From a virus, in IMG/VR virus record IMGVR_UViG_3300010339_000103, positions 1-20,310 of that record: DNA of 20,310 nt, one strand, 5' to 3'. Both the position numbers and the translations under genes were made by a program. Below, one piece after another: positions 105-18,518 of this stretch (position 1 is its first letter; the number at the start of each line of letters is the position of its first letter). The notes beneath the pieces are model-generated. The model worked only from the letters and a program-made list of their open reading frames with translations, ran no database searches and was not told the DNA's origin.

Positions 105-203
105 ATGTGGATGCGGAATTGCCCGATCTGCCACCGGCTTCTGCTAAAGCGGCATCTTGCTGATATAGTTATTTGCTGGTGTAATTGGGTGTGGGGGAGC
201 TAG
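105..203 (+). CDS. Tiny Cys-rich protein (32 aa)
   Basis: This short ORF starts at ATG 105 behind a TTGGAGT ribosome binding site and ends in TAG, whose last base is the first base of the GTG start of the next gene. The product contains CPICH near residues 6-10 and CWC near residues 24-26. This resembles half of a zinc ribbon, although the spacing does not match a family I can name. The good ribosome binding site and the one-base stop/start overlap favour a real gene. It is short enough that it could instead be a leader ORF that couples translation to the glycosyltransferase. Function unknown. Confidence 0.5.
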   Translation: MWMRNCPICHRLLLKRHLADIVICWCNWVWGS

Positions 204-913
204 TGACTATTATCGTGCCATCGAAGTATCCTGATATTTTTCAGGACTGTCTAACCAGCATCAATCAATTTGCACCAAAGGAAAAAAAGACTTTAGTGAG
301 GGATGGGGAAGATATAACCCCGCCCGCTGGTTGGACATTGATCCAAGGAATTGAACCCTTTATTTACTCTCGTAACGTCAATCTGGGCATCAACGCTTGC
401 ACAGACAATGTGCTTTTGATGAACGATGATTGTTGTTTTACACATGAAAACACTGTGGAAGCAATGGAAAAAGTTTTAGAGGATTACCCGGATGTCGGAA
501 TTCTTTCGCCAAAGATATTGGGTGAGGTAGGAAATGTTAATCAATCGAATGTGAAATCTTCTATAGAGTATTCTGATTATCGGCTGGCGTTCGTGTGTGT
601 ATTGATACGCAGAGCAGTGATTGATAAAATTGGATTACTTGATGAACAATTTATTGATTACGGTTGGGATGACGATGATTATTGCCGCCGAGCACAGGAT
701 GCAGGGTTTAAGTTAGCTTGCACCGCAGACGTATCTGTGAAGCACGGACATGGCGAAAAAGGTTGCACAGCTTCATTCTCACGCACAGGTTATCGAGATA
801 ATCAAGGAATTTATAACAAGAAATGGGGACCACCCAAACGTATTCCGGGTAAATCGCCAACTTATCTTGATAAAAATTTATTAGTACAAGACTGGCGGAG
901 TATGTATCGATGA
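203..913 (+). CDS. Family 2-like glycosyltransferase
   Basis: The protein opens with VTIIVPSKYPD, the usual first beta strand of a GT-A fold transferase, and has LLMNDDC near residue 75, an acidic DXD-like sugar-nucleotide/metal site. Further on, LLDEQFIDYGWDDDDYCRRA is the conserved region of GT2 rhamnosyl- or galactosyl-type transferases that carries the catalytic acidic residues. The chosen start is GTG 203, placed behind GTGGGGGAG and overlapping the upstream stop codon. The in-frame TTG at 185 is possible but has no ribosome binding site. It is the first gene of a carbohydrate cassette and its stop overlaps the next start (ATGA at 910-913). The acceptor and donor sugars cannot be told from sequence. 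Confidence 0.85.
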   Translation: MTIIVPSKYPDIFQDCLTSINQFAPKEKKTLVRDGEDITPPAGWTLIQGIEPFIYSRNVNLGINACTDNVLLMNDDCCFTHENTVEAMEKVLEDYPDVGILSPKILGEVGNVNQSNVKSSIEYSDYRLAFVCVLIRRAVIDKIGLLDEQFIDYGWDDDDYCRRAQDAGFKLACTADVSVKHGHGEKGCTASFSRTGYRDNQGIYNKKWGPPKRIPGKSPTYLDKNLLVQDWRSMYR

Positions 914-1434
914 TTGCCGTTATTACGCCACACAAGCCCGGTAGAGAAAGTCTTCTTATAGAATGTATTGCCTCTGTGAGGGTCCAAACAGTTCCTCATA
1001 GTCATTTTATTGAAACGGATTCGCTTAGATTAGGTCCATCTATTCTTCGCAATGCTATGGTGAACGCCCTTCCTGTAGAATATGATTGGATTGCTTTTCT
1101 GGATGATGATGACCTATTTCTGCCGAATCATTTGGCAACATTGAGTGCTGTTTCCGAAAATGCCGATGTAGTTTACAGTTCCTGTCAATCGGGCATCGCA
1201 ACGGTTATTCGTAAATTTGATAGGGAATCCTTACGATACGGTAATTACATTGCAGTGACTTCCTTAGTACGACGTAGTATGTTTGAAAAAGTTGGCGGAT
1301 TTCCCGATTTGAAGAAATACGAGGACTGGCAACTCTGGAACAATATCGCAGACGCAGGGGGGCGGTTTATATTTATACCGGAGGTCACTTGGACATACCG
1401 CATCCAGAAGGACAGCCGAAACGCATCCTGTTAG
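910..1434 (+). CDS. Family 2-like glycosyltransferase, short
   Basis: A 174-residue GT-A type transferase. It begins MIAVITPHKPGR, has WIAFLDDDDLFLP near residues 60-72 (the DXD metal and nucleotide-sugar site), and then VGGFPDLKKYEDWQLW, where the ED matches the catalytic-base region of GT2 enzymes. It is compact compared with the usual 220-300 residues, but both key regions are present. The start overlaps the upstream stop (ATGA). The 3' end overlaps the next gene by 46 bases, and the ribosome binding site of that gene lies inside this one. The role is transfer of an activated sugar; the glycan target is not known. Confidence 0.82.
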   Translation: MIAVITPHKPGRESLLIECIASVRVQTVPHSHFIETDSLRLGPSILRNAMVNALPVEYDWIAFLDDDDLFLPNHLATLSAVSENADVVYSSCQSGIATVIRKFDRESLRYGNYIAVTSLVRRSMFEKVGGFPDLKKYEDWQLWNNIADAGGRFIFIPEVTWTYRIQKDSRNASC

Positions 1435-2096
1435 GAATTTTTTCGTGTCATAGATATCAATACATTACCAATGACCTAATGCAGGATTGGTTTACTCGTC
1501 CGGTGACTGATAGGTTATCAGGTATTCGTGATTCGTGGTTGAAAGACGTTACGTGTGATTACAAAGTGTTCAAGGGGAAGCCTTGCAGTCGGATTGAACC
1601 GTTACCCGATGAAGTTTTTCTTGATGCTTCCGACGATTATCATCATTCTTTCGAGAAGATCCGAGCATTGATCTCCTACGCCCTTGATGGCGGGTATGAT
1701 TATTTATTGAAAGTGGATGATGATGTGTACGTATACTGGGATCGTATTCTCAAGAATATCCCTACCGCTGATTATGTTGGTGGACCCGTTGGCACAGATT
1801 ATTGCTCGGGTATGACATACTGGCTTAGTAAACATGCGATGGAATTTCTTAGGAGCGCCCCAACTGGAAATTGGGCTGAGGATCGTTGGGTAGGTGAATC
1901 GTTGCGAAGGAAGGGTATCAATTGTTCCTTCGATGGTCGCTATCATATAGCCCATCAATCAAAGACGAATCAATATATCAGCGATGAGGAGTTGGCAAAG
2001 CCAAATGAGTATTTGTCAGTGCATAGTCTTTCTCCAGATCAAATGAGAGGGTATTATGCTAGTCGATCCAGCGGACATCCCGGTATACTTCAATAA
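1389..2096 (+). CDS. GT31-like (galactosyltransferase-type) protein
   Basis: The 235-residue product has RILLGIFSCHRY at the start and YDYLLKVDDDVYV near residues 103-115. The latter is the DDD motif typical of the beta-1,3-galactosyltransferase (GT31)/fringe group. YVGGPVG and later WAEDRWVGESL fit the conserved GGPxY and EDV regions of that group. The start is taken as TTG 1389 because GGAGG sits five bases upstream; there is no ATG candidate before the conserved strand. It overlaps its neighbours at both ends, so it belongs to one translated cassette. GT31-like enzymes are common in large viruses, less so in bacteria. The linkage specificity is not predictable. Confidence 0.75.
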   Translation: MDIPHPEGQPKRILLGIFSCHRYQYITNDLMQDWFTRPVTDRLSGIRDSWLKDVTCDYKVFKGKPCSRIEPLPDEVFLDASDDYHHSFEKIRALISYALDGGYDYLLKVDDDVYVYWDRILKNIPTADYVGGPVGTDYCSGMTYWLSKHAMEFLRSAPTGNWAEDRWVGESLRRKGINCSFDGRYHIAHQSKTNQYISDEELAKPNEYLSVHSLSPDQMRGYYASRSSGHPGILQ

Positions 2097-2730
2097 CTTC
2101 AATCGCCTCACAGCAATGCGGGAGATGATTGATTGGTTGCAGGATGCTGGTACGAAGAATATTGTTATTTTTGATAACGCTTCAACATATCCGCCGTTGA
2201 TGGAGTATTACAAAAATCTTCCTGAAGGCGTGAGTGTGAATTACCTCGGACAAAATTGCGGACCTTGGGCGTTCTGGGATAAGGGTTTTCACCTGCAACA
2301 GCGCACTCCGTATATCGTTACCGATCCAGATTTAATACCGGACATAAACTGTCCAAAAGATTTAATAAACCAGTTGCAATTGTTGTTGCACGATAATCCT
2401 TCATGTGGCAAAGTCGGCACGGGGCTTTTATTCCCTGGTCTTGTTCCCCCAGAGACATATGATCCCAAGGGTAAGTCTCGGTATGACGAGAATATGTACT
2501 GGACCCGTCGCCACAGTGCAAAAGCCTTTTATGCTCCGATTGATACGACGTTTGCATTGTATCCGGTAGGACCAGCGAAGCACGATTACGGGATTAACAA
2601 GAACAATTTACGGATGGATCGGCCCTATGTCGTGAAACATACTCCATCTTTTTATACGGGAATTCAACCCCCGGAAGAATTGTATTACATTGCTCACGTT
2701 AATCGGAAATGGTCCCATGTAGGTTGGTGA
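2056..2730 (+). CDS. GT2/GT-A-like glycosyltransferase
   Basis: The protein begins DIPVYFNNFNRLTAMREMID and then has IVIFDNASTYPPLMEYY, the pattern of GT2 transferases that start from a DNxS donor-binding strand. YIVTDPDLIPD near residues 94-104 supplies a D-P-D acidic motif in place of DXD. ATG 2056 follows GAGAGGG and lies inside the end of the previous gene (41-base overlap). It ends 8 bases before the ATG of the deacetylase. This resembles the transferases often found beside capsule or O-antigen genes. Substrate unknown. Confidence 0.75.
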   Translation: MLVDPADIPVYFNNFNRLTAMREMIDWLQDAGTKNIVIFDNASTYPPLMEYYKNLPEGVSVNYLGQNCGPWAFWDKGFHLQQRTPYIVTDPDLIPDINCPKDLINQLQLLLHDNPSCGKVGTGLLFPGLVPPETYDPKGKSRYDENMYWTRRHSAKAFYAPIDTTFALYPVGPAKHDYGINKNNLRMDRPYVVKHTPSFYTGIQPPEELYYIAHVNRKWSHVGW

Positions 2731-2738
2731 GGAGAGAT

Positions 2739-3323
2739 ATGGGTCGAAGGCTGGCATTGACATACGACGATGGTCCGAACACCCCATTTACTCTTGATTT
2801 GTTAGATGTTCTTGATAAGCATGGTGTGAAAGCTACCTTTTTCATGGTAGGCGGGTTTGTCCAGCTTCTACCAGATATAGCCCAGCAAGTTTCTAAAGCC
2901 GGACACCTAATTGGCAATCACACAATCACGCATCCGAAGTTGACGGAATTATCATTGCCCGAGATCCGAACAGAGATTGAAGGGTGCGAACACATCCTGA
3001 CAGAAGTTGTTGGAGAGCATTCAAAACTATTTCGTCCACCCTTTGTATTGATAAACTCACAGATAGAATCCATCGTCACTTCTCACGGATTGATTACGGT
3101 GATGTGGAAAGCCGCAGGCAGTGATTGGCGACTTAATGGCGTAGATTATATTGTAAACAAAGTGCATACGGAGTTGGCGGGTGGCGGCGGAATTATTTTG
3201 ATGCACGATGGCGGACATCTTGGTATTGGTGCTCCCCGGTTCGACACAGTGCGCTCAACAGATATTATGATTGCTCGGTATAAGAGCGAAGGATATGAGT
3301 TTGTATCTCCCCTGGAGGTGTGA
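2739..3323 (+). CDS. Polysaccharide deacetylase (NodB domain)
   Basis: A 194-residue NodB-homology (carbohydrate esterase 4) enzyme that would remove N- or O-acetyl groups from a polysaccharide. The five family motifs are visible: TYDDGPN at residues 8-14 (the base and a metal Asp), GNHTITHP at 59-66 (the two metal His residues 61 and 65), FRPPF, the SDWR region, and ILMHDGG with the second catalytic His. ATG 2739 is chosen because GAGGAGAG lies directly upstream; an in-frame start 30 bases earlier has no such site. No signal peptide is visible, so it would act inside the infected cell or as a virion part. It ends one base before the next start and sits inside the glycosyltransferase cassette. 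Confidence 0.92.
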   Translation: MGRRLALTYDDGPNTPFTLDLLDVLDKHGVKATFFMVGGFVQLLPDIAQQVSKAGHLIGNHTITHPKLTELSLPEIRTEIEGCEHILTEVVGEHSKLFRPPFVLINSQIESIVTSHGLITVMWKAAGSDWRLNGVDYIVNKVHTELAGGGGIILMHDGGHLGIGAPRFDTVRSTDIMIARYKSEGYEFVSPLEV

Positions 3324-3324
3324 G

Positions 3325-4047
3325 ATGCCAATGGAATTGTTGACTGAAAGACTGAACGCCCACCAGAAAGAAATTTGCCAGAATACTATTAGCCCTAATA
3401 CATTTTTTATGTTAGTAGCCAATGCGCTGGTATCTCAAGAATCATTATCTTTAGTTCGTATGGGGGACGGCGAGAAGTATCTTTTTCAACACGCACAGAA
3501 GGGGCTGCCTGAAGTTACGATTAAACCACCTAACTCACCGTTTAATGAACAGTGGCTTAGGGGTCTTGGATGCTATGATATCCCAAATGGAGAATTGATA
3601 CGTCGGCTAAAAATCGCTGCAGAAGATTCCACATATTATGCCCCAAACATTATGGGTATCCAGATGGAGAGTTTTAGTGTAGCGGATTTGTTTACCGCCA
3701 GAAAGCGATATATAGATAATTGGTTTGTGCGAACGTGGAGTAGGAAATTGCAGGATCAATTGTTTTATCAAGCCAGACAAGTACTCTTTATCAATGGTGA
3801 CAAAAACGCCAACATTACTTTTACGAAACGCATTCATGCCCTTGGGTTAATGACGGACTGCATCGAGATGACTTCGTGGCAGCAAGCCGATTCTGTTATC
3901 ATGCAAGCAAAAAGTAATATATGTCCATTGGTTTTATTTGCAGGCGGACCGGCTAATAAACACATAGCTCCAGCAATTGCTACTACGGGATGTCGCCCGA
4001 AAGTTGTTCTTGATCTTGGTCATGCCGCAGCGATGGAATGGTTATGA
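3325..4047 (+). CDS. GT-D fold/DUF1792-like glycosyltransferase
   Basis: The segment LSLVRMGDGEKYLF at residues 41-54 is the signature of the DUF1792/GT-D glycosyltransferase domain, whose R-x-GDGE region forms the DXE-type metal and sugar-nucleotide site. The later VLFINGDKNAN and LVLFAGGPANKHIAPAI segments fit the C-terminal half of that domain, where GGPA precedes the last helix. Length (240 residues) is close to a single domain. The start is ATG 3325, behind CTGGAGGTG and two bases after the deacetylase stop. Its TGA overlaps the ATG of the pyruvyl transferase (ATGA). In bacteria this domain works on O-linked glycans of serine-rich adhesins or in capsule clusters; the target here is unknown. 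Confidence 0.75.
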   Translation: MPMELLTERLNAHQKEICQNTISPNTFFMLVANALVSQESLSLVRMGDGEKYLFQHAQKGLPEVTIKPPNSPFNEQWLRGLGCYDIPNGELIRRLKIAAEDSTYYAPNIMGIQMESFSVADLFTARKRYIDNWFVRTWSRKLQDQLFYQARQVLFINGDKNANITFTKRIHALGLMTDCIEMTSWQQADSVIMQAKSNICPLVLFAGGPANKHIAPAIATTGCRPKVVLDLGHAAAMEWL

Positions 4048-4808
4048 ATGCTTTTTGGTTTGTTGGTGATAATCCCTTAAATGAAAATAATTGGGGGGAT
4101 GCATTTAATCCGTTTCTATTTAAAACCTTATATGACATTGAATTAAGGAGAGTACCTCCGCCGACCACCAGTTTGATTTGTGTTGGCTCAATTTTGGAAA
4201 CAGTGACTCCCGAATTCAAAGGTCATATACTCGGGTCGGGCTTCATACATCGGGAGTCTCGACGAGATTTGAGTGCCGCCGTAGTGCATCTGCTGCGGGG
4301 GCGGTTGACTAAAGAACATTGCACTGGAATATTGGACGATATTCCGCTAGGCGACCCCGGACTTCTGGCGTATTTGTTCGCAAAGCCGACGAAGAAAAAA
4401 TTCCGTTACGGGATTATTCCACACTATGCCGACAAAACTTCCGCACAGGTTACCGAGTTAAGCCCGGATGTACTGAATATAGATGTACAATCAGGTGTCC
4501 AAGAGGTGATTGACGCCGCATCGCAATGTGAGAATTTAATATCTAGCTCTTTACATGGGTTGATACTGGCGGATTCGCTTGATATACCAAATTGTTGGGT
4601 GAAGTTGAGCGATAATCTGACAGGAGGCAATTTCAAGTTTGAGGATTACTATTCCATTTATGACGAATGTCCAGTTGTAGTAACATCCATTAAAGAAGCC
4701 TTCAATTGCTGCCAGACTAGGAATACATACAGGGTAAAGGAAACAATTCTGAAAGCGATGAACAAGTTTGTCGGTCTGGGGTGGAGTTACGCTCAAACGT
4801 ATAGGTAA
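4044..4808 (+). CDS. Polysaccharide pyruvyl transferase-like protein
   Basis: The protein has the layout of the PS_pyruv_trans (CsaB/WcaK) family. It starts with a FVGDNPLNENNWGDAFNPFL strand, has LICVGSILE and GSGFIH in the first half, and LISSSLHGLILADSL near residues 168-182, which is the family's conserved SxRxHG-like region. Members transfer pyruvate from phosphoenolpyruvate to a sugar as a ketal or form a related GT-B-like scaffold. The start at ATG 4044 makes an ATGA overlap with the upstream stop; an in-frame ATG at 4038 is also possible. It is separated from the next gene by three bases. Within the cassette it would add an acidic decoration to the glycan. Confidence 0.8.
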   Translation: MNAFWFVGDNPLNENNWGDAFNPFLFKTLYDIELRRVPPPTTSLICVGSILETVTPEFKGHILGSGFIHRESRRDLSAAVVHLLRGRLTKEHCTGILDDIPLGDPGLLAYLFAKPTKKKFRYGIIPHYADKTSAQVTELSPDVLNIDVQSGVQEVIDAASQCENLISSSLHGLILADSLDIPNCWVKLSDNLTGGNFKFEDYYSIYDECPVVVTSIKEAFNCCQTRNTYRVKETILKAMNKFVGLGWSYAQTYR

Positions 4809-4811
4809 CCT

Positions 4812-5531
4812 ATGGACATCATGCAAAGTTTTTGGTCCGGGTCAAAGTTGGGGATTGTGGGTCGGTTATGTTGCGCTTCATATATAGCGAATGGCCATGA
4901 ATTCCATCTTTATACTTACGGCCCAATAGAGGATGCCCCCATAGGTGTTATCATTAAAGATGCTAACGAGATTGTTCCTCAATCAGACCTCGCTCGATTC
5001 AAACTTGCAGCGCAATTTTCTGATTGGTTTAAATACCATTTATTGTTTAATCGGGGTAACTGGTGGGTTGATATGGATACAGTCTGTTTGCGCCCATTTG
5101 ATTTCTTGGATGAAACTATATTCGTAGAGGAGCGACTTGATAAAAACCGTCCAGACTACATTAACGCAGATTTTTGTAAAGCCCCAAAGGGTTCCCCTGT
5201 CATGGCTTGGTGTATAGCTCAAGTCAAGGAAAAAAGTAATCCGGCAGGGAATTGGCATGAACTGAAAGATTATTGCGAACTCGGTCCCTGGCTACAGACT
5301 GCAGCAGTGCGACATTTTGGTATTTGCCCGCAGTCGTATTATAAGTTTTTTAACCCAGCCCATGTAACACCGTCTAATCCGGAATGGTTGTGGTTTAATG
5401 GAGTGGTTCAACTTCCGCCGGATATTTATGGTGTTCATTTTTGGCGATGCAATCGTCAGGAAGCAGATTGGAAAGGCGCTGATAATTCAATTTTTGAACA
5501 GTTGAGGCGCAGATATGCGGTATATCGTTAA
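4812..5531 (+). CDS. GT32-like glycosyltransferase
   Basis: The key region is FSDWFKYHLLFNRGNWWVDMD ending at residue 89, the standard DXD region of GT32 (capsular polysaccharide synthesis / mannosyltransferase Och1-like) enzymes, with Asp87 and Asp89 as metal ligands. Upstream, the HEFHLYTYGP segment matches the family's N-terminal strand; downstream, GPWLQTAAVR and YGVHFWR correspond to the conserved GP and HxW/HHW positions that close the active site. The full 239-residue length is typical. It is the last enzyme of the cassette, and its 3' end overlaps a small membrane-protein gene by 17 bases. Confidence 0.88.
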   Translation: MDIMQSFWSGSKLGIVGRLCCASYIANGHEFHLYTYGPIEDAPIGVIIKDANEIVPQSDLARFKLAAQFSDWFKYHLLFNRGNWWVDMDTVCLRPFDFLDETIFVEERLDKNRPDYINADFCKAPKGSPVMAWCIAQVKEKSNPAGNWHELKDYCELGPWLQTAAVRHFGICPQSYYKFFNPAHVTPSNPEWLWFNGVVQLPPDIYGVHFWRCNRQEADWKGADNSIFEQLRRRYAVYR

Positions 5532-15043: not shown

Positions 15044-17793
15044 ATGGGATTCTCCCCAGCCGGAAACCAGCTTTCCAACCTGCCTCAGTCCACGGTAAAG
15101 TTTTCATAGAACTTAACGGAAAACCGTAAACTGTTGATTCCGCGGTAATTATGTATGACAAAAAGTTCCGTGAGAACCTTTGACCTAAGGGTTCTTTAAA
15201 TCTTGCTATATCCGTCAAAGTATGATACTATCATAAGAGACGGAGGAAAGACCTCATGCAAGCCAAAAATAATGGGTACCTCGCAGGAATTCTAGATGGT
15301 GAAGGCTGTATTTCCATTTACATTTCTAAGCGATGGGATAAGAGACAAAACAAATTTGGCTTTCGACCCGTGTTAGAGATTTCAATTTATCAAGCCGATA
15401 AGCGTTTGACGGATTGGCTTCAGTTTCATTATGGTGGTAAATGTTACGAACACACCATGAAAAATTCTACACGACCCGGATATCAATGGATTGCTCCTAG
15501 AGGCAAGGACCGCGAGTTGTTCGTTCTTGAGATGATGCCATATTTAATTCTCAAAAAAGAACAGGCTCTGTTAGCTCTTGAATACCTGAGACTCCCTAGT
15601 ACAGGGGACCGATGTAAAGAGCGATTTGACCTTGCCCGGAAATGTTCCACGTTTAATCGTAAGGCGTCGTCTACGAGTAAGATTGCCGCAAAGTACGAAG
15701 AAGCGATGAAAGCCTTTGAGGAATCCCCAACGACTAATACGCAAGACGTGTCAAGCCCCAAACTTGACTAAAGATAGAGTCTGAACTGCATGGTGACATG
15801 CAGAACGTGACCCCAGTGATGGGGACAACAATAACAAATTTGGAAGGCGCAAACCCCGTTCGTCGCATGCTCGGAACGTCTCGACCTGCCGATGAATTCT
15901 GGTAACCAGTATTTTTAAGCATCTTGTACTGGATATGCGATATTTGACCTAATTGGAGATGTTCATGTACGTTCCGCTGGCCGCTAACACCGTCCAGACT
16001 ACGGAAGGCACTGTGGGTTCTTCCCTCAGCGTCAGCGTACTGACAAATACCGCGACTATCGGTGAATTAATTGCTAGTTCACCGTAAAAACTTGACTATA
16101 TCGGTGGATATCTGCTATACTAAAATAGTAGACAATACCGAGGGAAGACACTATGAACGATAAACATCGTTGGCCGTATGTGGCTGGAATCGTGGATGGT
16201 GAGGGTAGTTTTTCCATCTATTACAACAAACATAGCGAGAATCACAATGCTCGCATTACGATTGGGAATACTTCAATTGAACTAATTAAATATTTGATGC
16301 ATAATTTTGGTGGAAAGTTTTATTCTTTTGACCCAAAAGACATGCACGGATTCAATCGTAAAACTATGCATTCTTGGAGACTCAGTGGGGTGAAGAATAA
16401 AGAGGATTTTATTCTAGGAATTCTTCCACATTTGGTTATCAAGAAAGAGCAAGCAAAGGTTTTCTTAGAGTTTTTGAGAATACCACGTTGTAATCAATGG
16501 TCGCTCAAGACTGATGTTGCAAAAAACAAAGAATTACGCGACAGTCTGATGCATAAATTATCTGCACTTAACCACGGTAGTGAACCTCTAACGACTAATA
16601 CGTCAAGCATCAGCAGCGATGCTGTAAAGATAGAGTCTGAACTCATGGGCGACCATGAGAGTGTCCCTAGTGTGAATTAGGGGACGTTCACGTTCCGTGA
16701 ACAGTCTTAAATCCTAAACAACTTTGATGCAGATTACGCGAACTTTAGTTCGCTCAGTCTTGCAACTGCCATTGATAACACAGTTGAGAACGTTGCCCGT
16801 GAAATGTCGTATCGCCTTGGCGAGTCGTTGTCCGCACTTGTGCGTGCAACCGCTGACGGCGCATCCAGCATTGACGCAAGCGTTCTTACACAACTCGCCC
16901 AGTCCAGCACTTCGAGTTTCACCGCTCTGTCGCTCTCTCAAATCCGTAACAGCGTTCAATCGCTGGCGGGTCGCAGTGTGCGTCCGTTTGATGAAGCTTC
17001 CAAGAGCTTCTCTGGTGTGATCCATCCGTTCGCATTGGGCGACGTGATTGCTGACAACAGCAATGACGCACCAATTGACATTCTCAAGCACACCCCGGTG
17101 GGTTTGATGAAGATGGATTCGCTGGTGTCGGTTGATCTGACCGAAGTTATCGAACTGCCTACAACGGGAGTCCAGTTTTATCAGACTAACCTTGTTACGC
17201 AGACCATTAACTACGGCGGAACTACCGGTCTGACGGCACTTCGCACTTACATCTTCGGGCGTGATGGTATCTTCTCCATTAACCTCGGAGCCAAGGGCGA
17301 CACCGGTTTCGGTGATGGCGAATGGCGTAACATTGAATGTAATATTGTTCAGAATGCGGAGCCAACCGTTGCCGATCCTGAAGGTTTGATCCCTGGATAT
17401 ACAAAGTCTGTCCAGGTTATATCTAGTAAACTAAAAGCGATGTCTGCTACCGCAGGTTGCTAATTGCTAGATAGGCGTAGTCATGTAAGATATTGGGACT
17501 TCTTACAGGGTTCACTTTACTACGTCACTCGGCCCTAAATGATAAGTATTGGGGCGAGTAATAAACCCACTCTGATTGACTTGGAAGCTGAAATGGCTAA
17601 CAAGGCGGAAGCTGAAAGGCACCGTGAGAGACTAAGTGAGCGGGCACCGAAAGGTGATGCGATAGTCCGAACTTGCAGGAATAACAATTGCAAGAGACTA
17701 GCAGAAATGTCTAGTCCCGCTGAAAAGCGAGTAACAATATTGGATACAACTATTAGGATGCGCCAGATTGACGCTGCTTCGGCGATCTCCTAA
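15044..17793 (+). CDS. Major capsid protein, N4-gp56-like, seven exons
   Basis: The capsid protein is rebuilt by joining 15044-15103, 15154-15179, 15843-15912, 15956-16067, 16727-17398, 17496-17536 and 17743-17793. The total is 1032 nt, one open frame, 343 residues. In order the exons give: MGFSPAGN..QSTVKF; YDKKFRENL; KAQTPFVACSERLDLPMNSG; EMFMYVPLAANTVQ..TIGE; YADYANFSSLSLATAIDN through GLIPGW; TSYRVHFTTSLGP; DTTIRMRQIDAASAIS. The NSG plus YVPLAA and TIGEYADY features, and the EGT element, fit the N4-gp56 capsid family (HK97 fold). Only the 672-nt fifth exon is a long ORF by itself; every other exon runs into a stop if read unspliced. The joins were placed with group I rules (U before, G at the intron end, P1 and P10 pairing) and family expectation. 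The ribosome binding site (CAGGTAA) is weak. Confidence 0.8.
15104..15153 (+). other. Miniature intron-like element A (50 nt)
   Basis: The first exon of the capsid gene ends in TTT at 15103 and runs into TAG three bases later than needed; the frame resumes at TAT 15154. P1: exon GUAAAGUUU (15095-15103) pairs with GAACUUAAC (15109-15117), one A.A mismatch, U.G wobble at the splice site. P10: UCAUA (15104-15108) pairs with the 3' exon UAUGA (15154-15158). The element ends in G. In between is one hairpin (CGGAA at 15117-15121 with UUCCG at 15138-15142). There is no room for a group I core. Confidence 0.65.
15203..15246 (+). promoter_or_regulatory. Promoter and SD-hiding hairpin of the intron 1 endonuclease
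   Basis: TTGCTA (15203-15208) and an extended -10, TGATACTAT (TACTAT at 15226-15231), with a 17-base spacer, form a plausible sigma-70-type promoter. The same DNA folds as RNA: TCCGTC (15211-15216) pairs with GACGGA (15239-15244), covering part of the GGAGG ribosome binding site, around an inner TATGAT/ATCATA stem. A message starting at this promoter would lack the 5' half of the outer stem, so the site would be free; read-through capsid mRNA would hide it. Confidence 0.5.
15256..15771 (+). CDS. LAGLIDADG homing endonuclease in intron 1
   Basis: The 171-residue protein has one LAGLIDADG helix, GYLAGILDGEGCISIYIS at residues 7-24, in which DGEG provides the acidic metal ligand. The single motif means it would act as a homodimer. 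FHYGGKCYE, LEMMPYLILKKEQALLALEYLRLP are the other conserved parts of the domain. It would cut intron-less alleles of the capsid gene at the intron insertion site to drive homing. ATG 15256 follows GGAGG nine bases away. The last dozen codons (TTNTQDVSSPKLD) run through the ribozyme's P7, P3 and P8, so protein and RNA core share sequence. It is a paralogue of the endonuclease in intron 2. Confidence 0.9.
   Translation: MQAKNNGYLAGILDGEGCISIYISKRWDKRQNKFGFRPVLEISIYQADKRLTDWLQFHYGGKCYEHTMKNSTRPGYQWIAPRGKDRELFVLEMMPYLILKKEQALLALEYLRLPSTGDRCKERFDLARKCSTFNRKASSTSKIAAKYEEAMKAFEESPTTNTQDVSSPKLD
15913..15955 (+). other. Miniature intron-like element B (43 nt)
   Basis: The capsid frame runs AACCAGTAT and then TTT TAA; it resumes 43 bases later with GAGATGTTC. 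P1: exon CCAGUAU (15906-15912) pairs perfectly with GUACUGG (15926-15932) including a U.G pair at the splice site. P10: AGCAUCUU (15918-15925), directly before it, pairs over eight bases with the 3' exon GAGAUGUU (15956-15963). The last base is G. The rest is one short AUAU-GCG-AUAU hairpin plus a UUGACCUAAUUG tail. No catalytic core can be present. Confidence 0.7.
16092..16145 (+). promoter_or_regulatory. Promoter and SD-hiding hairpin of the intron 2 endonuclease
   Basis: TTGACT (16092-16097), 18 bases, then an extended -10 TGC-TATACT (TATACT at 16116-16121) make a near-consensus sigma-70 promoter. As RNA, TCGGT (16101-16105) pairs with ACCGA (16137-16141) with an inner TACTA/TAGTA stem, overlapping the start of the GAGGGA ribosome binding site. 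The arrangement is the same as in intron 1 and parallels the known control of intron-encoded endonucleases in T4. Confidence 0.6.
16153..16680 (+). CDS. LAGLIDADG homing endonuclease in intron 2
   Basis: A 175-residue protein with the single motif PYVAGIVDGEGSFSIYYN at residues 8-25, followed by FGGKFYSF and ILGILPHLVIKKEQAKVFLEFLRIP, block for block like the endonuclease in intron 1. It would act as a homodimer and recognise the capsid gene at this second site. ATG 16153 follows GAGGGA. The C-terminal part (TTNTSSISSDAVKIESELMGDHES) is read through the P7, P8 and P9 RNA elements. The two endonucleases are clearly related, so one intron or its endonuclease gene may have arisen from the other by transposition. 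Confidence 0.9.
   Translation: MNDKHRWPYVAGIVDGEGSFSIYYNKHSENHNARITIGNTSIELIKYLMHNFGGKFYSFDPKDMHGFNRKTMHSWRLSGVKNKEDFILGILPHLVIKKEQAKVFLEFLRIPRCNQWSLKTDVAKNKELRDSLMHKLSALNHGSEPLTTNTSSISSDAVKIESELMGDHESVPSVN
17399..17495 (+). other. Short intron-like element 3 (97 nt)
   Basis: The capsid exon ends CCTGGAT at 17398. P1: CCUGGAU pairs with GUCCAGG (17410-17416), U.G at the splice site. P10: AAGUCU (17404-17409) pairs with the 3' exon GGACUU (17496-17501). The exons join as GGA-T/GG-ACT, giving GWTSYRVHF. The body folds as one domain: UAUCUAG (17420-17426) with CUAGAUA (17467-17473), enclosing AGCGA/UUGCU and UCUGC/GCAGG stems. I find no P7/P3/P8 arrangement, and 97 nt is below the size of any complete group I intron I know. 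Confidence 0.65.
17537..17742 (+). ncRNA. Group I intron 4, ORF-less (206 nt)
   Basis: The exon CTCG-G-CCCU pairs with GGGG-CGAG (17551-17558; one bulged G, U.G at the splice site), and GUAUU just before it pairs with the 3' exon GAUAC (P10). Core: GACTA (17630-17634) with TAGTC (17663-17667) forms P7; CACC-GAAA-GGTG (17645-17656) is P8 with a GNRA loop; CTTGCA/TGCAAG and ACTAG/CTAGT are 3' hairpins. It ends in G, and joining gives SLGP-DTTIRMRQ. This is a compact but complete-looking group I intron. Confidence 0.85.
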
Positions 17794-17888: not shown

Positions 17889-18518
17889 ATGAAAGCGCAT
17901 TCGGAAGAAGTACGTCAAAAGACTTTAGAATTATTGCGTCAACAGCGAAGCATGCAGGAAATATCTACCCGAACAGGGATATCTGTAGGTACGATAGAAG
18001 ATTGGGCTGCTGAGTGGCGAAAAGACGGAATGCTTGTTGAATACAAGCAAGAGGGTTCGAGATTTATAAAACATGCTCAACATCTGTCAAAAGGTTATTA
18101 CAAGTGCATTCGAAAGAGATATAATGGAATGCGCTGGACAGATAAGATGTTGAATCGCCAGTTTGGATTTGATAATATTTTACAAGCGATTCATTACTAT
18201 TTGAAGAATGGTCATCCTAGACCCTGTGCGTACTGTGGGAGATTCCCCGGTATCGGTAAAGTGTGGGGGCTAGACAGGATTAATTCTTCTTTAGGACATG
18301 TACCTGGAAATTTGGTCCCTTGTTGCAGTTCTCATTTCGAAAGCCCGCAACTTTCCTGCCAAGCCAGCAAATCAAAATTTTCATTGCTGTTTTGGATGGA
18401 AAGTAGTATGTCACGGGCTAACGGTGGAATTGTTCCGTTTCGTGTTGTAGAACAGCGGTTAGAGAGAATCTATACGCTGGCGAAAGAACTTGGTTCATTT
18501 GAACCAGAAAAGGAATAA
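17889..18518 (+). CDS. HNH endonuclease with N-terminal helix-turn-helix
   Basis: Residues about 5-45 look like a helix-turn-helix (EVRQKTLELLRQQRSMQEIS, then TGISVGTIEDW). The nuclease part has CAYCG near residue 113, then GLDRINSSLGHVPGNLVPCC, the core of phage HNH homing nucleases: DR...N...Y/HxPxN...CC. After PCCSS there is an extra HFESPQLS before CQASKSKFSLLFW, so the second CxxC is stretched. It is still one open frame of 209 residues. ATG 17889 follows TTAGGAGGG. It is a free-standing endonuclease gene next to the last capsid intron, a usual place for enzymes that promote spread of neighbouring introns. Confidence 0.8.
   Translation: MKAHSEEVRQKTLELLRQQRSMQEISTRTGISVGTIEDWAAEWRKDGMLVEYKQEGSRFIKHAQHLSKGYYKCIRKRYNGMRWTDKMLNRQFGFDNILQAIHYYLKNGHPRPCAYCGRFPGIGKVWGLDRINSSLGHVPGNLVPCCSSHFESPQLSCQASKSKFSLLFWMESSMSRANGGIVPFRVVEQRLERIYTLAKELGSFEPEKE

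Follow-up and report, generated by a model that had tools for sequence, protein, structure and literature searches.

How could an insertion of just 43 nt, with no room for a catalytic core, be removed from a phage message? This question is raised by the capsid gene of a soil phage, IMG/VR record IMGVR_UViG_3300010339_000103 (positions 1 to 20,310). We will refer to this 20.3-kb virus record, whose genes include a terminase, an SU10-type portal and the capsid, as the window, and to the insertion, at 15913-15955, as element B. An earlier note on this DNA had proposed that B is an intron of very small size, whose guide is of the group I type and whose core is supplied from elsewhere, and this is still the best reading. 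We propose, with good confidence, that B is a core-less, non-autonomous intron of the group I type that is excised by the core of the intron that follows it on its transcript (intron 3).

Element B carries a guide that bridges its own exon junction

We located insertions by spliced protein-DNA alignment with intron states, using the capsid protein of an uninterrupted relative as the reference. The alignment gave exactly the ends of B that were reported before, between CCAGTAT in the 5' exon and GAGATGTT (15956-15963) in the 3' exon. Inside B, the guide AGCATCTTGTACTGG (15918-15932) forms 7 pairs with the end of the 5' exon (the P1 helix) and 8 pairs with the start of the 3' exon (P10), or 15 contiguous pairs. 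This matches the earlier description, except that there are three G.U wobbles (two that flank the junction and one within P10) instead of two. Only 6 of 20,000 dinucleotide shuffles of B matched the 15 pairs.

B had also been described as the smallest and best-paired of its set. This is true within the window, where three short insertions, A, B and C, have guides of 11, 15 and 13 pairs, but related phages contain shorter elements, down to 32 nt. Similarly, B is indeed very small for an intron, but it is not the extreme, as elements of 32 to 42 nt are found in relatives. A relative of B with equal length and its own matching guide occupies the same site in an independent contig (L018). An Rfam search of B found no group I match and only sub-threshold, unrelated matches.

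A family of putative mini-introns in related phages

We examined 150 capsid loci (a number that includes repeats of the same contig) from uncultured IMG/VR contigs and from a single isolate, Tunturiibacter phage Tunturi_3, with its uninterrupted capsid gene. These loci contain 43 distinct short insertions, or minis, of 32-98 nt at 12 capsid sites. Distinct long insertions number 92; the shortest of them measures 180 nt, and no insertion falls between 98 and 180 nt. By content, 65 loci have no insertion, 29 have long insertions only, 56 have both kinds, and none has a mini only. The same kind of element recurs across contigs of different metagenomes.

A T precedes each of the 43 minis and a G closes it, as a G also closes 75 of the 92 long insertions. 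(The exceptions include solo long introns with a terminal A, namely those of L061, L113, L119 and L123 at site 32.0, and of L049 and L063 at site 92.0.) Every mini has a guide near its 5' end, with a P1 of 6-13 pairs, a contiguous P10 of 4-12 pairs, and U.G at the donor. On average the guides form 13.7 pairs with their own flanks and 3.98 with the flanks of other sites; compared to shuffles, the pairing has p ≤ 0.01 in 40 of the 43 minis and p ≤ 0.034 in all of them. Furthermore, guide and exon covary: in P1 at site 314.1 we counted AT 7, TA 2 and CG 1, and TA 4 and CG 6, with compensating changes in the exon and the guide. The U.G pair in P1, the P10 helix and the terminal G are features of group I introns, but the conserved core (P3-P8) is absent from the minis, which at 32-98 nt do not have room for it. 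Full-length introns occupy 7 of the 12 mini sites in other phages of the set, so the minis could be internally deleted descendants of full-length introns.

Outside of these capsid genes we saw little sign of minis. In the portal genes of 16 relatives we found long introns only, if noise in the alignment of the variable N-terminal part is disregarded. Portal insertions of 183-235 nt, with no mini upstream, lie near residues 58-86 in L138, L139, L143, L144, L163, L165, L166, L171 and others. A general scan of gaps in blastx alignments found minis almost solely in the capsid gene, in a sample of DNA that is biased to that gene. In L153, which has a divergent capsid gene (score 383), a possible 38-nt mini is followed by a 217-nt insertion; this is perhaps the same arrangement outside of the close family. 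A search for the capsid among genome contigs gave a single locus, a close relative (87%) in a metagenome-assembled genome labelled Bacteroidetes (L193), possibly a mis-binned phage contig.

The loci were gathered via the capsid protein, the intron open reading frames (ORFs) and the pattern of the intron core, and were run through the same alignment. The alignment includes a bonus of 2 for a T preceding, and for a G ending, each insertion; with the bonus removed, 32 of the 43 mini boundaries stay in place and 11 shift by 1-2 nt. We left out of the mini counts L081 (a copy of the window), L025 (a truncated copy of L026 and others), L053 (whose apparent mini is the tail of a full intron that was severed by the start of the contig), L089 and L086 (scores under 500), L145 (truncated), and, except for L187, the loci found by pattern whose capsid score was not above 1200. 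Among the omitted loci, which include L153, those of L136, L142 and L164 have a long insertion at 314.1 and no mini, and the other low scorers are junk or partial alignments.

Each mini is followed by a long intron

Wherever the contig reaches far enough past the mini (42 of 42 cases), the next insertion is a long intron, of at least 196 nt, which we will call the partner. (For the 43rd mini, in L060, the contig ends 94 nt after the mini.) A test of this order gave a sum of log10 p of -12.0 over 33 configurations, with kinship ignored. Neither this order rule nor the second guide described below was part of the earlier note.

The partners are group I introns. RF00028 matches introns 2 and 3 of the window with 28.6 bits (15618-15803) and 21.8 bits (16451-16659), both below the gathering score. 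For the 206-nt intron 4, the one ORF-less partner that we searched against Rfam, there was no group I match, so its core was judged by comparison with relatives. In the short, ORF-less partners, P3 and P7 interleave as they do in group I introns, and P3 covaries. At least 6 of the 7 P3 pairs form in each of 24 short introns that we compared, a set that includes some solo introns and omits L132 as an outlier of 25.

A second guide pairs next to the partner's splice site

Past the first guide, the mini pairs with exon sequence lying a few nt 5' of the partner's 5' splice site. The complementarity in this helix, which we call T, has a mean score of 18.6 at exactly that position and of 11.3-14.8 at the other coding-sequence offsets printed (40 of 42 mini-partner pairs were usable, and fewer at far offsets). 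When T was tested in a fixed register against shuffled tails, p was at most 0.005 at partner sites 328.0, 90.1, 54.2, 331.2 and 319.2, 0.010 at site 29.2, and 0.015 at 341.1. At partner site 328.0, one column of T has G-C, U-A, C-G and A-U among nine pairs, or all four Watson-Crick types.

Folding without constraints also gives this helix. The expected number of T pairs is 6.8, versus 1.9 with shuffled tails (42 mini-partner pairs, Wilcoxon 4e-11), and at least 4 T pairs are expected in 35 of the 42. For B, the unconstrained centroid of 15900-16100 holds the P1 of B, the T helix and the P1 of intron 3 together. T is also specific: among the long donors, the next donor is the best-scoring in 27 of the 32 testable minis, with a mean of 18.7 versus 12.1. 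The idea of T arose by eye, from the output for duplexes between tails and partners, and was tested on the same loci and on later ones; the first T test is exploratory. The zone of complementarity was fixed after that test, and the controls (shuffled tails, other sites and sliding) are internal. For L177 and L187 we assigned the partner donor by hand.

In an ordinary group I intron, P2 would begin just after P1. In many minis, T begins 2-4 nt past the P1 guide, and it may replace the missing P2. The guide and T consume the whole length of the 32-nt mini, while the extra bases of the 97-nt element C can fold as a stem between the P1 guide and T. A strong duplex between a mini tail and the partner intron itself was found in L112 and L117 only (z of -2.8 and -1.8), within the ORF. 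At their site (23.0), the mini tail can pair for about 20 bp inside the partner intron's ORF, by chance or as an extra contact.

A proposed mechanism and its alternatives

We computed the insertions, the guides and their covariation, the order rule and the T helix. Excision of the minis by an external group I core, in the manner of a spliceozyme, would agree with both the order rule and T. In the case of B, its 5' half would be a bridging guide: P1 would set the 5' splice site via its U.G pair, and the contiguous P10 would hold the 3' exon. The final G of B would be the G that group I chemistry requires. The 3' half of B would pair, through T, with the end of the downstream exon, immediately 5' of the P1 of intron 3; this would loop out exon 4 and set B's splice-site duplex beside the core of intron 3. 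That core would then do both steps on B, which are the attack by an external G and the ligation of the exons, and intron 3 would excise itself afterwards or separately. Because the exon used by T is still attached to the partner intron, excision of the mini is expected to come first.

The earlier note had named intron 4 as the source of the core for B. Instead, B's T guide scores 19.5 with the donor of intron 3, versus 10 and 11 with those of introns 2 and 4, and intron 3 is the next insertion, as partners are for 42 of 42 minis.

Several observations weigh against our proposal. T is not significant at partner sites 89.0 (n = 1, p = 0.10) and 53.0 (n = 2, p = 0.16), and ensemble T pairing is near zero in L002, L006, L049 and the 54.2 mini of L141. 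In 5 of the 32 testable minis, the next donor is not the best long donor, and in the window the tail of A scores 15 with its own partner and 20 with the donor of intron 3. Mini tails do not in general pair with the partner intron itself (in most pairs, the RNAduplex z-scores relative to shuffled tails were positive or close to 0). B alone does not have an unusually stable minimal fold (z = -0.41). A group I core has a single docking site for P1, so the partner's own P1 would have to move aside for that of the mini. We sought cDNA-like contigs and found none; insertion-free capsid sequences are at most about 97% identical to any mini-bearing gene, so none of them can be called cDNA. The loci and the minis are kin (the 43 minis form 34 clusters at 85% similarity), so the p-values overstate their independence. 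Finally, that B is removed by splicing, with the core of intron 3 as its catalyst and in the sequence of steps given above, is our inference from these computed features.

Some of these points would fit a different source of the core. A group I ribozyme other than the next intron (intron 4, an intron located upstream, or one that has already been excised and works in trans) could serve the minis, and T would merely order the splicing or prevent exon skipping. With the guide inside the mini, no particular core is required in principle; the target of T is in the exon and not in the partner intron, with which the tails do not generally pair; and the tail of A prefers a donor other than its neighbour's. 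We nevertheless consider this unlikely, given that a long intron is the next insertion after 42 of 42 minis, even in genes with multiple introns, and given the specificity of T for the next donor. The same regularity counts against the minis splicing themselves, as self-sufficient introns would not need an intron directly downstream. Small fungal ribosomal DNA (rDNA) introns of 56-81 nt (PaSSU), with P1, P10 and intron-exon pairing, are reported to splice in vitro (PMC3160393), and a mini might likewise be a minimal group I ribozyme. The fungal introns have a P7 and a terminal U (PMC3160393), whereas the minis end in G, are as short as 32 nt, and devote most of their length to the guide and T, which leaves no space for P3 and P7. 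Self-splicing is thus very doubtful.

As for ribosome hopping over the 43 nt, the gap is similar in size to that of T4 gene 60 (50 nt), a stop codon lies early in B, and a hairpin is present. The earlier note had argued that hopping explains B poorly for want of matching take-off and landing codons, and we can extend this to the whole family: in 0 of 43 minis do the take-off and landing codons, or their amino acids, match, with an ambiguity at the junction of 0-1 nt. Nor would hopping call for the U.G pair, P10, a final G or a downstream group I intron. We reject it, on the codon matches, as highly improbable. That the gene is dead or the assembly faulty, as its many stops and insertions might suggest, has the smallest chance of all, as a conserved capsid protein can be read across all of the exons, compensatory changes preserve the pairing of the guide and of T, and such elements come from different metagenomes.

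The capsid gene and its surroundings

Spliced alignment identified six insertions in the capsid gene of the window, of 50, 663, 43, 659, 97 and 206 nt, all of which begin after T and end in G. Three of them are minis (A, 50 nt; B, 43 nt; C, 97 nt). The features of the gene are listed in Table 1.

Table 1. Exons, insertions and guides in the capsid gene of the window
Feature	Position	Strand	Basis or remarks
Capsid exon 1 (..STVKF)	15044..15103	+	Spliced protein-DNA alignment
Mini-intron A, 50 nt	15104..15153	+	Guide TCATA+GAACTT at 15104-15114
Candidate second (T) guide of A, ACGGAA	15116..15121	+	Weak; outscored by a match elsewhere in the gene
Micro-exon 2, 26 nt (YDKKFRENL)	15154..15179	+	Contains the T target of A, TTCCGT, at 15166-15171
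Intron 2, full-length group I, partner of A	15180..15842	+	LAGLIDADG-type ORF 15256-15771
Exon 3	15843..15912	+	Final 7 nt, CCAGTAT (15906-15912), pair with the guide inside B
Mini-intron B, 43 nt, last base G	15913..15955	+	Spliced alignment; guide pairing
P10 guide of B, AGCATCTT	15918..15925	+	Pairs with the start of the 3' exon, 15956-15963
P1 guide of B, GTACTGG	15926..15932	+	Pairs with the end of the 5' exon, 15906-15912; U.G at the splice site
Second (T) guide of B, TGCGATATTTG	15936..15946	+	Pairs with exon 16044-16054, just 5' of intron 3
Exon 4 (EMFMY..IGE)	15956..16067	+	Spliced alignment
T target of B in exon 4, CAAATACCGCG	16044..16054	+	13 nt 5' of the 5' splice site of intron 3
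Intron 3, full-length group I, proposed catalytic partner of B	16068..16726	+	LAGLIDADG-type ORF 16153-16680
Exon 5	16727..17398	+	Spliced alignment
Mini-intron C, 97 nt	17399..17495	+	Guide 17404-17416; closing stem 17420-17426/17467-17473; T guide 17474-17481
Exon 6 (GTSYRVHFTTSLGP)	17496..17536	+	T target of C, ACTACGTC, at 17519-17526
Intron 4, 206 nt, ORF-less, proposed partner of C	17537..17742	+	Core of the group I type, with P3/P7 in that order, judged from relatives
Exon 7, end of the capsid gene	17743..17793	+	Spliced alignment

For the homing endonuclease gene of intron 2, we found one further locus. Right after the capsid gene, the ORF at 17889-18518 stands free; a helix-turn-helix (PF13384) lies in its N-terminal part, and it also has an endonuclease VII-like match (phrog_1035). 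It is perhaps a free-standing homing endonuclease. At 185-5531, 5' of the packaging genes, a run of ORFs includes some that look, by eye only, like glycosyltransferases and deacetylases.

Implications

B is real and far from chance, and the anatomy of its family is consistent and fits no natural system that we know of or could find. It seems likely that these phages have a natural, spliceosome-like division of labour on group I chemistry, in which introns cut down to guide RNAs (to as little as 32 nt) are each removed by the core of the next intron via a partner-specific helix that bridges the exon. This would occur up to three times per phage gene and would have arisen at many sites, partly where other phages have full-length introns. 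Such a division between intron and catalyst seems to have been known, until now, only from engineered RNAs. Our literature search, whose coverage excludes all bioRxiv-only preprints and most subscription papers, returned no description of natural core-less group I introns that are served by a neighbour. A review on group I introns in bacteria does not contain the terms "in trans" or "trans-splic", by a term search (PMC3984707), and a like search of the Tunturi phage paper found no "intron" (PMC11924767).

If our proposal is correct, then there are natural group I introns that have lost their own core and rely on an adjacent intron. A step of this kind has long been postulated in the evolution of the spliceosome from group II introns. 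One ribozyme core would also serve two substrates through an exchange of guides, which would provide a natural model for the engineered spliceozymes. The minis would add a class of introns that has been overlooked by gene finders, because minis resemble frameshifts. A compact unit in L109, with a 35-nt mini, a 50-nt exon and a 200-nt intron (under 300 nt in total), would be small enough for simple in vitro work.

Comparison with known systems

Bypassing in T4 gene 60 involves a 50-nt non-coding gap and needs matching take-off and landing codons. The minis are also short non-coding gaps in a phage gene, but all 43 lack the matching codons. Trans-spliced (discontinuous) group I introns of mitochondria build one core from pieces for one junction. 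As with the minis, parts of the group I splicing apparatus lie outside of one continuous intron; in contrast, one intact core would serve two introns here.

The group III introns of Euglena are spliced by other RNAs or factors in trans. They are degenerate group II introns that have lost their catalytic domains (PMC8393795). By analogy, the minis would be natural introns without catalytic parts. However, group III introns have group II chemistry and signals and are found in the chloroplast, while the minis have group I signals, an identifiable neighbour and explicit guides, and are found in phages. The terminal G and the P1/P10 guide point to group I.

The "degenerate" fungal rDNA introns discussed above, for which self-splicing is claimed, have P1, P7 and P10 at 56-81 nt (PMC3160393). 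Like them, the minis are very short, keep P1 and P10, lack most of the core helices and pair with exons. Unlike them, the minis span 32-98 nt, lie in a phage capsid gene and precede a full intron, and none has the combination of a P7-like hairpin and a terminal U, as all 43 end in G.

The closest parallel in function is engineered. Group I spliceozymes based on the Tetrahymena core excise introns of about 100 nt in trans and join the exons, also in E. coli, and earlier trans-excision ribozymes removed introns of up to 28 nt (PMC4094466). As we propose for the minis, the group I core that removes a short intron lies outside of that intron. The spliceozymes, however, act in trans and carry the recognition sequences in the ribozyme, while the minis carry the guide in the element that is excised. 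Their helper would be a natural neighbouring intron on the same transcript, with pairing to the exon as the tether.

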